From contig VGXV01000020.1 in the NCBI GenBank assembly GCA_016873165.1, forward strand, positions 1 through 64,000: 64,000 nucleotides of DNA, written 5' to 3'. Made by a program: the position numbers and the translations under genes. This stretch comes from Planctomycetota bacterium. Its GTDB lineage: Bacteria > Planctomycetota > Brocadiia > Brocadiales > Brocadiaceae. Below are positions 9,425 to 14,807 of this stretch, in pieces. How positions within the stretch are numbered: the stretch's first letter is position 1; the number at the start of each line of letters is the position of its first letter. The notes under the pieces were generated by a model. That model saw nothing but the letters and a program-made list of their open reading frames with translations, was not told where the DNA came from and made no database searches.

Positions 9425-9940
9425 ATGTCGCTTTTAGAGTCTGTAAAGAAGTTGCCGAAAGCGCCACAACCTGCGATTCCTTCCAGGGAGTTGTGGCTTG
9501 CATTGTGGGGGGCAATTATAGGCATAGGGATTACGGCCTGGTTTGCGTTTCATTCGAAGTGTCCTATGCTTTTGGGCCCCTTTGGCGCGTCTGCTGTGTT
9601 GATTTACGGGGCGTATAAGGCTCCCCTGGCGCAGCCGAGGAATGTGTTGATGGGGCATTTTATTGGTGCATGCACCGGATGTGTCATACATGATTTGTTT
9701 GGGACTGCCTGGTATTCGCTTGCACTTGGAGTTGGCCTTGCAATAGTGCTTATGATGGTGACATACTCTGTGCATCCTCCTGCTGGCGCTACGACATACG
9801 TGGCGATACAGTCCGGAGGGCTTGGTACCGGATACATGTTTATTTTAAACCCTGTCATGATCGGGGTTGTTATTTTGATGATAGTTGCTCTTGTGTTTAA
9901 TAAACTTGGAAAGCGGGATTATCCTTCGCATTGGTGGTAA
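9425..9940 (+). CDS. HPP-family integral membrane protein (possible nitrite transporter)
   Basis: 171 residues with four hydrophobic segments (about 28-46, 51-66, 80-118 as two, 134-156). The family signature HPPAGATTY occurs near residues 118-126 and CPMLLGPFGASAV near 45-57. Plant plastid HPP proteins have been linked to nitrite transport; bacterial members are mostly uncharacterised. Start ATG 9425 follows GGGAGAGGG. It is the first gene of a plus-strand run with a Cache/PAS sensor and an FNT channel, which supports an anion (nitrite) uptake role in this likely nitrite-consuming organism. That role is inferred from context. Confidence 0.85.
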   Translation: MSLLESVKKLPKAPQPAIPSRELWLALWGAIIGIGITAWFAFHSKCPMLLGPFGASAVLIYGAYKAPLAQPRNVLMGHFIGACTGCVIHDLFGTAWYSLALGVGLAIVLMMVTYSVHPPAGATTYVAIQSGGLGTGYMFILNPVMIGVVILMIVALVFNKLGKRDYPSHWW

Positions 9941-10026: not shown

Positions 10027-11073
10027 ATGTTTAATTCGATCAGGAATCGACTCATTTTTTTGCTGATTGCATTTACCTTGATCCCCTTAGTGATATTGCG
10101 GATTGTAGCGTATCCCAAAATGCAAGCTGATGTTGAGAGGGAATTGATTAGAAACTTGCAGGGGGTTGAGCAAAAGCAGGCAGATTTGTTGAGTACATGG
10201 ATGAAAGAAAGGCAGAAAGACGCCCGTGTGATCGGGACAAATCCGTTAATTCTTAAGTGTGTGAAAATTTCCAAGAGTGATGCGGATTATACGAGTATTT
10301 TGGGATATTTGGACAGATTAAAAACCGAATATGCATATAAGGAAATATCCGTATGCAACAGCAAGGGTATCGTGACAGTATCAACGGCAGAAAATGTAGT
10401 AGGGAGCGACATCTCGCAAAAAAATTATTTTATAGAGGCCACAAGGGGAAAAACGTTCGTTTCTGAAGTGTTTCCTTCAGATATTCCTGTTATAAACGAG
10501 TTTGCCGAAAAAGAAGTAGGGGTTCCCACTATGTTTGTTTCTGCGCCAGTAAAAGACTCTTCAGGCGTTATAAATGGGGTAATTATTTTGAGGCTTGACG
10601 TTTATGCTCTCAGCGAACTTATCGTGAGTCATGAGTTGGGAAAAACTGCTGAAACGTATCTTGTAAATGCAGAGGGATATATAATCAGCGAGTCGAGGTT
10701 TGGTGAAACACTCAAGGAAATGGGAGTGGTAAAAAGGCGTTGTTCGTTGGAACTGAAATTGGTAGTTCCTGGAACTGATGAGTTGACCGATGGCGTAGCG
10801 AAGTGTATTGCAGGGGCTGATGGATATAACGCAGTTGGATACAAAGACTATAGCGGTGTAATGGTATTGGGCGCATGGCGATGGATGCCTGAGTATAACT
10901 GGGGGTTAATTACTGAAATAGACAGAGATGAAGGGTATGGTGTTGTATATAACCTGCAGTATATTGTAAATGCTATTTTATTATTCCTTGCATTTCCGAT
11001 TATAATTGCTGCTGTTTTTATTGCCCGGCAGATTACAACGGCGAAAGCTCTGGACGAAGAAAAAAAAAAGTGA
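10027..11073 (+). CDS. Membrane sensor, double-Cache domain, first part of a frameshifted sensor
   Basis: 348 residues. A transmembrane segment at about 7-27, an extracytoplasmic dCache-type domain (about 35-300, including VSTAENVVGSDISQKNYF and APVKDSSGVINGVI), and a second transmembrane segment at about 315-338, then TTAKALDEEKKK and stop. Proteins of this type continue into HAMP, PAS or output domains, and here two PAS domains follow in the -1 frame with no gap. The end falls on ten consecutive A residues containing A AAA AAG. The natural product is therefore probably a single Cache-TM-PAS-PAS protein made by slippage, with this shorter form as the unshifted product. The ligand is unknown; HPP and FNT neighbours suggest a small anion. 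Confidence 0.85.
   Translation: MFNSIRNRLIFLLIAFTLIPLVILRIVAYPKMQADVERELIRNLQGVEQKQADLLSTWMKERQKDARVIGTNPLILKCVKISKSDADYTSILGYLDRLKTEYAYKEISVCNSKGIVTVSTAENVVGSDISQKNYFIEATRGKTFVSEVFPSDIPVINEFAEKEVGVPTMFVSAPVKDSSGVINGVIILRLDVYALSELIVSHELGKTAETYLVNAEGYIISESRFGETLKEMGVVKRRCSLELKLVVPGTDELTDGVAKCIAGADGYNAVGYKDYSGVMVLGAWRWMPEYNWGLITEIDRDEGYGVVYNLQYIVNAILLFLAFPIIIAAVFIARQITTAKALDEEKKK
11060..11073 (+). promoter_or_regulatory. Candidate -1 slippery site (A10, heptamer A AAA AAG, then TGA)
   Basis: A run of ten A (11060-11069) is followed by GTGA. In the Cache frame it reads GAA AAA AAA AAG TGA; a -1 slip on A AAA AAG gives AAA AAA GTG ATT and continues directly into the PAS protein as KKVIESERRY. 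The heptamer is the same as in dnaX frameshifting. Transcript slippage on A10 would give the same fusion, and a sequence error cannot be excluded. Confidence 0.65.
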
Positions 11074-11816
11074 TTGAGTCCGAACGTCGCTACAAAGAAT
11101 TGTTTAATTCTTTGAAGGAAGCGATTTATCAGTCAGAGCCGGGATTTGAAGGTGTGTTTACTTTTATTAATAAATCCGGCGCTGAGGTTTTGGGGTTTGA
11201 CAATCCTGAAGATGTTATAGGGAAGAAAGTAAAAGACATATATGTGGACCCTGAAGATAGAAGGCGTCTTTGCGAGAAGCTTGAAAAAGAGGGGGTCTGG
11301 CGTGATTTTGTTTCGCTTTGCAAAAGGAAAAATGGAGAGACTTTCTATGCGGAACGCACAAGCAGCCTGATAAGAGATGGAAGCGGCAAGTCGGTGGCTA
11401 TTCAAGGCGTATTCAGGGATATCTCTGAGCGTAAGAAGACGGAACTGGAGATAATTGAATCTGAAAAACGATACAGGCTGTTATTCAATTCTTTGAAAGA
11501 AGGGATTTTTCAATGTGAACCCGGCAAAGACGGGATATTTACATGGATTAATCAGGCTGGGGCTGATATTCTTGGGTTCGGTTCTCCTGAAGATGTGATT
11601 GGTTCTCGATTGGCGGATATATATGTAAACCCTGATGACAGGAAAGAATTGATAGAGAAGCTGGAAGATGAAGGTGTGTGGAGAGATTTTACCGCGTATT
11701 GCAAAAGGAAGGATGGGGAAAGATTTATTTCTGAAACAACATGTAATCTTGTCCGTGATGAAAACGGTAAACCGTTAAGGATTGAAGGTGTATTTAGGGA
11801 CATAACGGAAAGATAA
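11070..11816 (+). CDS. Tandem PAS-domain protein, probable C-terminal part of the Cache sensor
   Basis: 248 residues if read from GTG 11070, which overlaps the TGA of the Cache gene. Two PAS/PAC units (about 1-120 and 125-246) are near repeats: RYKELFNSLKEAIYQSE and RYRLLFNSLKEGIFQCE, each ending in GVFRDISER or GVFRDITER. There is no convincing ribosome site before GTG, which favours production as a -1 extension of the Cache protein. No kinase, GGDEF or methyl-accepting domain follows, so the output must lie in a partner protein or in PAS-mediated contacts. Confidence 0.8.
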   Translation: MIESERRYKELFNSLKEAIYQSEPGFEGVFTFINKSGAEVLGFDNPEDVIGKKVKDIYVDPEDRRRLCEKLEKEGVWRDFVSLCKRKNGETFYAERTSSLIRDGSGKSVAIQGVFRDISERKKTELEIIESEKRYRLLFNSLKEGIFQCEPGKDGIFTWINQAGADILGFGSPEDVIGSRLADIYVNPDDRKELIEKLEDEGVWRDFTAYCKRKDGERFISETTCNLVRDENGKPLRIEGVFRDITER

Positions 11817-11866: not shown

Positions 11867-12292
11867 ATGGCAAATGAACAGGTAAAAGGTTTCTCGACAA
11901 ATGCAAAAACTTTCATATTGATATTGTTATTCATAAACATTGCATTTGCGGTGAAAATGATAAATAAGTATTATTCCATGAAGGATGTTGGTTACACAAG
12001 GGAAAAAACATTTAAGGAGCAGACAACAAAAAGGATTATGAGGGCTTTTGCATCAGTTGAAGAGGCAAATGCAATCGTCAATGAAATAAAGGCGGATAAA
12101 GAAAAGGCGGAAAAGGCTGCAAATGCGCTTGCGGTAAGGGAGCGGGAATTAAATCGTAAAAATAAGGAAATGGAAGATGCTGTCGCGTTTCTGGAATCGG
12201 AAAAGGCAAAATTGCAAGGGGAAATATGGGCACTTGAGGATCAATTATTGATGGCAAGGCAAACAATAAGTGAGTTGCGGAAAGAAAAATAA
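11867..12292 (+). CDS. Small single-span membrane protein with long coiled coil
   Basis: 141 residues behind GAGGAG. One transmembrane helix (about 15-31, FILILLFINIAFAVKMI) and then an almost continuous charged helix from residue 60 on (EANAIVNEIKADKEKAEKAA, FLESEKAKLQGEIWALEDQL). I do not recognise the family. It lies 50 bases after the PAS protein and before the FNT channel, so it may be a structural or signalling partner of the sensor, whose own output domain is missing. The coil could mediate oligomerisation. No enzymatic motif is visible. Confidence 0.7.
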   Translation: MANEQVKGFSTNAKTFILILLFINIAFAVKMINKYYSMKDVGYTREKTFKEQTTKRIMRAFASVEEANAIVNEIKADKEKAEKAANALAVRERELNRKNKEMEDAVAFLESEKAKLQGEIWALEDQLLMARQTISELRKEK

Positions 12293-12577: not shown

Positions 12578-13474
12578 ATGTTATATACTGGTGCTGTTGA
12601 TGCCCTTGCGGCAGTTTCACTTAAAAAAGCGACTGCAATGAAGCATAGTCTTGTGGGCTTTTTGACTCTTTCCGTAATGGCGGGTTTTTATGTAGGATTT
12701 GGTGTTATTCTTGCGTTTATTGTCGCGGCTCCTATTGCGGCGATAAATCCCGGGCTTGGCAAGATAGCTGCCGGAATGACGTTTGGTATCGCATTGTCGC
12801 TCGTAATTATAGCTGGTTGTGAATTATTTACGGGTTATAATTTACTGATATTTAAAGGTACTTTAAGAGGTACGATAACGCTTGGCGACAGTATGTTAGG
12901 GTGGTTTTGGACCTATATGGGCAATTTGGCAGGTTCGATGCTGTTCGCGTTGATGCTTATTCCCACGGGAATTTTTGCGAAAGATCCATGGTTGGGATTT
13001 TTGTTGAAAGTTGCGACATATAAGATGAATGCGCCATGGTGGGAATTGTTTTTCAGGGGTATTTTTTGTAATTGGCTCGTATGTCTTGCCATCTGGTGTA
13101 GTTTCAGACAAACGAGTGATTCTGGTAAGCTCATTATGATTTGGTGGTGTTTGTTCTGCTTTATTACCACAGGTATGGAGCACAGTGTTGCAAATATGAC
13201 AATTCTGACGCTGGCATGTTTATTGCCTCATGATCCTGCAGTTATTAACTTCGGCAAGATGTTCGGATGGAACCTTGTTGCGGTTTCTCTTGGTAATATT
13301 GTGGGAGGCACATTCTTTGTAACATTCCTGTATTGGTTTGCTACCCATATGGATGAGGTCGGCGCAAAGAGGAAAGGCGCCGCTGTTCAGGGCGGATCAG
13401 GCGCTAATGAGTTGTCAGCCGCAAGCCAGACATTCGAAGAAATTAAAGATGTTAAAGTAAGAATGAAGGCTTAA
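12578..13474 (+). CDS. Formate/nitrite transporter (FNT) family channel
   Basis: 298 residues, the usual FNT length, with six membrane helices. Family landmarks: KKATAMKHSLVGFLTLSVMAG at the first helix, ELFTGYN at about residue 85, and a second inverted repeat with GIFCNWLVCLAIW and MEHSVANM carrying the central conserved histidine. Start ATG 12578 follows AAGGAG. FNT channels (FocA, NirC) pass formate or nitrite across the inner membrane. Substrate choice cannot be fixed from sequence by eye. With the HPP protein and Cache/PAS sensor upstream, nitrite is the favoured guess. A perfect terminator follows. Confidence 0.93.
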   Translation: MLYTGAVDALAAVSLKKATAMKHSLVGFLTLSVMAGFYVGFGVILAFIVAAPIAAINPGLGKIAAGMTFGIALSLVIIAGCELFTGYNLLIFKGTLRGTITLGDSMLGWFWTYMGNLAGSMLFALMLIPTGIFAKDPWLGFLLKVATYKMNAPWWELFFRGIFCNWLVCLAIWCSFRQTSDSGKLIMIWWCLFCFITTGMEHSVANMTILTLACLLPHDPAVINFGKMFGWNLVAVSLGNIVGGTFFVTFLYWFATHMDEVGAKRKGAAVQGGSGANELSAASQTFEEIKDVKVRMKA

Positions 13475-13613: not shown

Positions 13614-14807
13614 TTATTTGGCGGTTTTTTCTTCGCCAATTGCGTAAAGCTTGCCATCATTGGAACCGATATAAATTGTGCCATCTTCGTCGATGCAGGG
13701 TGATGATTCAATGGAATCTCCTGTAGTAAGAGACCATTTCAAATTGCCGTTTTGATCCAATGCGTAAATTTTTTTATCTCCTGATGCGCAATAGATAACA
13801 CCATCGGAGGTGACAACAGGTGAAGACCGCATTGAGCTTTTTGCCGTAAAAATCCATTTCAATTTTCCATCAGAGGTAAATGCATACAGATTATTGTCTC
13901 CTGCTCCGACATAAAGATTTCCCTCAGTATCGATTGCCGCGGAAGAATCTATGTCGTATAAAGTATTGTATGTCCATTTTGTTTGACCATCCGGCTGAAA
14001 GACATAAAACTTAGCGTCTTCTGATCCGACGCATATATCGCCATTTGGTCTGATTAAAGGGGATGCATCCATGATATATCGTGTTCCGAAACTCCATGCG
14101 GCGTTTCCGTCTGGTTTCATGGCAAATAAATAGTAATCTTCAGAGCCGAAATATATCATGCCGTCCTGGGCTATTGCCGGAGATGAAACGATATGGTCTG
14201 CAGTGCGTTGAGTCCACTTTAATGTGCCATCGGAAGTGATTGCGTGTAGTTTTCTATCCCAGCATCCGAAATAGATTGTCCCGTCCGGGGCTATTGCCGG
14301 CGAAGATATTATTCCTCCGGGGGCTTTATAATTCCATAATAAACTGCCGTCGGCGTTCAGTGCATAAAGATTGCCATCCCATGATCCGAACAGGATTGTT
14401 CCGTCTTTTCTTATTGCGGGAGAAGATTCAACTTCACCTTGCGTTTGAAATACCCACTTTAGCTTGCCTTCCCTGGTAACCGCGTAAAATTTTTTGTCCT
14501 GAGAACCGAAGTAAATGGTGCCGTCTTTTCCTATACAGGGCGAAGATGTTACGGCGCCTTCTGTCTGAAATGTCCATTTTATGATTGGATTCCGGATTCC
14601 CTTGAAAGGACTTAGTCCGGTATGTTGTAAATCATGCCGGAACATTGGCCATGGCGTATCTGCGAGTTCAGAACAAAGTGAGGTGGATACATGCATCAAA
14701 GCAATAAGAAAAAGGAAGATTGCTGTACAGGGGAAAAAAGATATCTTTTTTTTAGGAAAAAAGAATCCTTTTTTCAAAAAAAAAACAAACGGATGATTAT
14801 TTAACAT
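13614..14807 (-). CDS. Exported PQQ-type (outer-membrane protein assembly BamB-like) beta-propeller
   Basis: 397 residues. A basic N-terminus and hydrophobic stretch (about 22-45) form a signal peptide or anchor, then WPMFRHDLQHTG, the common start of this exported family. About eight repeats follow with the pattern SSPAIxxDGTIYFGSxDxKLYAL, the tryptophan-docking or PQQ-like blade. Members are periplasmic scaffolds or enzymes; no PQQ-ligating or catalytic residues are evident, so a structural role is likely. Its ATG overlaps the hisB stop by one base (TAATG), so it is co-translated with the histidine operon, an odd partner with no obvious metabolic link. Confidence 0.85.
   Translation of the reverse strand: MLNNHPFVFFLKKGFFFPKKKISFFPCTAIFLFLIALMHVSTSLCSELADTPWPMFRHDLQHTGLSPFKGIRNPIIKWTFQTEGAVTSSPCIGKDGTIYFGSQDKKFYAVTREGKLKWVFQTQGEVESSPAIRKDGTILFGSWDGNLYALNADGSLLWNYKAPGGIISSPAIAPDGTIYFGCWDRKLHAITSDGTLKWTQRTADHIVSSPAIAQDGMIYFGSEDYYLFAMKPDGNAAWSFGTRYIMDASPLIRPNGDICVGSEDAKFYVFQPDGQTKWTYNTLYDIDSSAAIDTEGNLYVGAGDNNLYAFTSDGKLKWIFTAKSSMRSSPVVTSDGVIYCASGDKKIYALDQNGNLKWSLTTGDSIESSPCIDEDGTIYIGSNDGKLYAIGEEKTAK

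Follow-up and report, generated by a model that had tools for sequence, protein, structure and literature searches.

A ten-adenine run at the frame junction of a split Cache-PAS sensor gene in Kuenenia: a candidate slippage site beside a nitrite transporter

A sensor gene divided between two reading frames

The stretch of DNA analyzed here (the window, 64,000 nucleotides of a Brocadiaceae genome, hereafter the source genome or G000) carries a gene cluster in which a membrane-bound sensor is split between two reading frames (Table 1). The first ORF encodes, in order, an N-terminal transmembrane (TM) segment, a dCache_1 domain, a second TM segment, and the linker ALDEEKKK before its stop codon. 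The dCache_1 domain occupies residues 36-296 and is nearly complete (Pfam positions 3-239 of 240). The 3' end of this ORF reads GAC GAA GAA AAA AAA AAG TGA. In the second ORF, PAS domains lie at about 11091-11429 and 11526-11810, the ORF ending with the second of them, and Pfam detects no kinase or other output domain. Its earliest possible start is a GTG at 11070, which overlaps the stop codon of the first ORF. Structure searches with either half gave no solved relatives at the thresholds used. On the basis of gene order, the transporter gene downstream appears to correspond to focA_2 (kuste3055) of K. stuttgartiensis (PMC7438415, PMC6423088).

Table 1. Features of the split sensor locus and its neighbors (window coordinates)
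Feature	Position	Strand	Remarks
HPP-family membrane protein, putative nitrite transporter	9425..9940	+	Pfam TM_HPP 1e-47; conserved neighbor; upstream in same cluster
Cache ORF, zero frame, 348 aa, Cache-only product	10027..11073	+	
A10 homopolymer, proposed slippage site	11060..11069	+	Exact in three Kuenenia
Heptamer A_AAA_AAG (A_AAA_AAC in K. hertensis)	11064..11070	+	
Zero-frame stop TGA, directly after the A run	11071..11073	+	Conserved in three species
PAS-PAS ORF, -1 frame, 248 codons	11070..11816	+	
TM and coiled-coil protein of the cluster	11867..12292	+	No Pfam match
Formate/nitrite transporter (FNT)	12578..13474	+	Pfam 8e-69

A preliminary description of this locus had reported that the Cache ORF ends in AAA AAA AAG TGA with the PAS ORF in the -1 frame and without a ribosome-binding site. 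The sequence bears out both statements, there being no Shine-Dalgarno (SD) element in the source genome, and a consensus scan, the only method applied to this point, located no sigma-70-like site near 11070 that could serve the PAS ORF as an internal promoter. The same description held that nine or eleven adenines would give one continuous frame. This is incorrect for nine, which yields AAA AGT GAT TGA; a single frame requires 8 or 11.

Conservation within Kuenenia and the intact gene of relatives

Three Kuenenia genomes were compared: the source genome, K. hertensis YC6 (G019), and a single-contig assembly (G020) that appears to be K. stuttgartiensis. All three have a Cache ORF of 348 aa, a run of exactly ten adenines, a TGA directly after it, and a PAS frame of 248 codons. 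The source Cache protein is 84% and 77% identical to those of the two other Kuenenia, and not one indel separates the three across 1,790 bp. By the NG86 method, dS between orthologues is 0.85-1.35, dN is 0.10-0.14 for the Cache half and 0.07-0.10 for the PAS half, and dN/dS is about 0.09-0.12 and about 0.08-0.10, respectively. Both halves are under purifying selection, which is as strong on PAS as on Cache. The low dN/dS, the absence of indels, and the retention of the split together indicate that the PAS half is selected as a protein and that the frame break is persistent. By themselves, the A10 bases do not stand out in their conservation: invariance among the three Kuenenia is seen in about 5% of 10-nt windows taken in phase along the gene. 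The evidential weight lies instead in the kept frame break, the length of the run, and the presence of a second A10 in a sister lineage. The viral collection contained no further Kuenenia sequences. A further Cache copy, sharing 52% identity, lies in an unbroken 791-codon frame of K. hertensis (G019:C75:70119-71129), and no counterpart of it was found in the source genome.

Orthologue searches covered 33 genomes of the family and 62 of the order. Outside Kuenenia and G024, a genome of the sister genus, the orthologues occupy one frame, are mostly 762 aa in length, have the architecture Cache-HAMP-PASx3, and contain no long A run. In a tree of 30 orthologues, Kuenenia and G024 form one clade (support 100/100), and both the tree and synteny place the Kuenenia sensor in the Cache-HAMP-PAS family of Brocadiaceae. 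The neighborhood in relatives comprises a Cache-HAMP-PAS-GAF histidine kinase, a sigma-54-type response regulator, an HPP protein, a coiled-coil protein, a receiver protein, and an FNT. For example, one intact Brocadiaceae orthologue (L110:6949-9237) likewise lies in the order HPP, sensor, coiled coil, FNT and has Cache and PAS domains but no kinase; it differs in having one frame, a HAMP domain, three PAS domains, and no A run, whereas the Kuenenia sensor has two PAS domains and no HAMP. These comparisons show the intact Cache-HAMP-PAS gene to be the ancestral state. An intact fusion lacking the run had been named beforehand as an observation that would speak against slippage; such fusions do exist, but, being the ancestral form, they are no refutation of slippage in Kuenenia.

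All three Kuenenia lack the HAMP segment, about 40 residues. The product obtained by joining the two Kuenenia frames, AKALDEEKKKVIESERRY, matches AKSLDEKTREVVESEKRY residue for residue and without a gap, as would be predicted if the ribosome shifted by -1 or if one A were added. G024, the single genome that samples its genus, retains HAMP and carries an A10 of its own inside it, which also calls for a -1 change to reach the PAS frame. Elsewhere in the source genome there is a paralogue encoding a stand-alone Cache-TM-HAMP protein of about 382 aa, which lacks both an A run and a PAS domain (L004:1501-2505, minus strand); Cache-only membrane proteins are thus normal in this organism. Paralogues with open frames of similar length are present in the genomes of many relatives.

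Published data are available for K. stuttgartiensis, in which kuste3050-3055 form a 'nitrite transporter gene cluster' (PMC6423088). There, kuste3055 is FocA and kuste3051 is HPP, and expression of the putative operon that includes focA_2 is raised when nitrite is limiting (PMC7438415). Judged by gene order, the Cache half would correspond to kuste3052 and the PAS half to kuste3053. The two are transcribed similarly, with 119 and 115 mapped reads for the former and 118 and 93 for the latter, and in the proteome kuste3052 was quantified and kuste3053 was not detected (PMC6423088). These values fit a main Cache-only product accompanied by a scarce PAS-bearing one, and the two-ORF annotation is consistent with the split being present in that strain too. 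The neighboring HPP gene, which is intact in G000 and G019, has decayed in G020 (L107:9530-10050, minus strand): its frame changes near codon 27, and a TAG interrupts it in frame. A gene broken in this way agrees with the listing of kuste3050 and kuste3051 as two ORFs.

Probable slippage and the alternatives to it

We consider it reasonably likely that the sensor is read into a Cache-only main product and a minor Cache-PAS-PAS fusion made by slippage. Under standard reading, the product would be a membrane-bound Cache-TM protein whose translation ends immediately behind the A10. Slippage, most likely the insertion of one A by RNA polymerase (A11) or the omission of two (A8), would join the Cache-TM portion to the two cytoplasmic PAS domains, and -1 ribosomal slippage at A_AAA_AAG may assist. 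The predicted junction peptide is DEEKKKVIESER from one added A or from a ribosomal -1 shift, and DEEKKVIESER from A8. In other Brocadiaceae, the counterpart of such a fusion would be the intact Cache-HAMP-PAS protein. The Cache-only form may dilute or tune the signaling of the fusion in nitrite-related regulation, and could serve as its decoy or partner. Having no output domain of its own, the sensor probably works as the partner of a kinase.

Transcriptional slippage sites are recognized by a homopolymer of at least 8-9 A or T at the frame junction, and the junction here has A10 in three species; they are further recognized by conservation of the run and the frame break with selection on both ORFs, and this too was found. 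A close known system is tssM1 of Citrobacter rodentium, in which transcript slippage on A11 gives about 20% of the product (PMC4256274). It shares with the Kuenenia gene a poly-A run followed by a premature stop, a short main and a longer slippage product of a membrane protein, and an intact counterpart in relatives. The differences are that tssM1 is a secretion-system component and that slippage was shown there by mass spectrometry of RT-PCR products, whereas in Kuenenia we infer it. The dnaX genes of Thermus thermophilus and E. coli likewise give a short and a long product from one slippery A run, that of T. thermophilus by transcript slippage on A9 at 50% (PMC1088944). In many bacteria, runs of this length show selection against slippage (PMC1088944). 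As in Kuenenia, dnaX of Chlorobia, among a few bacteria, has a zero-frame stop (PMC5009743, PMC3711429). In E. coli dnaX, by contrast, slippage leads to the short form and is helped by an SD and a stem-loop, whereas in Kuenenia it would lead to the long form and conserved stimulators are absent.

The fusion could also arise by classical, dnaX-like -1 programmed ribosomal frameshifting at the heptamer, which on its own we regard as rather unlikely. Heptamers of the X_XXY_YYZ form lie in the zero frame of all three genomes, as A_AAA_AAG in G000 and G020 and as A_AAA_AAC in G019. The former is the most shift-prone heptamer in E. coli (PMC5009743, PMC4066793) and adjoins the zero-frame stop, and a ribosomal shift would give the same fused peptide as an added A. 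The A_AAA_AAC of K. hertensis makes a weaker shifter, but a ribosomal shift is possible there too, as A_AAA_AAA is likewise contained in the run. Against such a mechanism, no SD-like element is conserved at about 10 nt upstream, nor is a stem-loop or pseudoknot conserved at the correct spacing of 5-9 nt downstream. The only hairpin, CAAAGAATT..AATTCTTTG, was considered as a stimulator and rejected: it starts 22 nt downstream, which is the wrong spacing, is imperfect in G020, has a z-score that is not significant, and has comparable pairing in an intact relative. The proposal in the preliminary description of a dnaX-type shift therefore stands as to the heptamer of the source genome, and is weakened by the heptamer of K. 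hertensis and by the lack of a conserved stimulator. Its other proposal, transcript slippage on the ten adenines, gains from their constancy in three Kuenenia. We favor RNA-polymerase slippage over the ribosomal shift, neither being proven, because the A10 itself is constant while no ribosomal-frameshift stimulator is conserved, and because A10 is longer than A9 and close to the A11 of tssM1. Since polymerase and ribosome may slip jointly, the likelihoods accorded to the rival readings are not to be added to that of the main one.

Restart is common in bacteria at overlaps of stop and start codons, and the PAS ORF could be a gene in its own right, whose translation restarts at the overlapping GTG (GTGA), with no fusion made. 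The classic arrangement, GTG overlapping TGA, is present in G000 and G020, and G020 has a GAGG ten bases upstream of the GTG. In K. hertensis, however, CTG replaces GTG and no ATG, GTG or TTG occurs before codon 41 of the PAS part; an SD is absent from both G000 and K. hertensis; and the alignment with relatives runs into the linker without a gap. The PAS half also went undetected as a protein despite similar transcription, which speaks against restart, although it could also mean that the PAS part is not made at all, and this has been counted against the fusion. In sum, we judge restart as doubtful as the purely ribosomal shift.

Phase variation, in which run length would mutate within the population between A10 (off) and A11 or A8 (on), is distinctly improbable: homopolymers this long are prone to replication slippage, but exactly A10 is found in the consensus genomes of three Kuenenia and in G024, with no A8, A9 or A11. 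Sequencing error or a dying gene hardly merits consideration, since, common as homopolymer errors are and broken as the neighboring HPP gene is in G020, the same A10 recurs in three separately assembled genomes, one of them single-contig, and both halves are under purifying selection.

The type of recoding proposed is known, and apparently new in this sensor. Polymerase slippage is known in polymerases, secretion systems, and insertion elements; a limited literature search found no membrane sensor, and nothing relevant on slippage in anammox bacteria or PAS sensors. If the slippage reading is true, then in an anammox genus of central ecological importance slippage recoding would control a signaling protein beside the main nitrite channel, and annotation of kuste3052 and kuste3053 as two unrelated 'hypothetical proteins' would be wrong. 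Public RNA (PRJNA485513, named in PMC6423088) and proteome (PXD011763) data exist for K. stuttgartiensis.

Rarity of A10 runs and the second run in the sister lineage

A genome-wide homopolymer survey, in which exact A10 runs were counted, gave 7 in the source genome (4.05 Mb), 22 in G019, 15 in G020, and 17 in G024. Simple Markov models of the window predict 92-149 for the source genome versus the 7 observed, a 13- to 20-fold depletion. Two of the seven are kept in all three Kuenenia, and the one at the sensor junction is the only sense-coding case; no conserved ORF switch was found at the other A10 sites of the source genome.

The A10 runs of G024 and Kuenenia look independent because they occupy different positions in the same linker. 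By arithmetic from the 17 A10 of its genome, the chance placement of an A10 in the roughly 170-nt linker of G024 is about 4e-4. A tentative extension, which we hold to be possible rather than probable, is that two sister anammox lineages independently gained a linker A10 and that transcript slippage on it sets the ratio of signaling Cache-PAS protein to decoy Cache-only protein.

Two further A10 runs in the source genome lie 949 bp apart (L049:1502 and 2451, L105; G000:C6) and are conserved in K. hertensis; one of this pair, located outside long ORFs, has been retained in G020 as well. Within the window, the minus-strand gene 13614-14807 has a T10 run close to its N-terminus, at 14776-14785 (A10 when read on the plus strand). 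K. hertensis shares this run, and there the gene is divided into two pieces, of 126 and 181 aa (L109:3010-4203).
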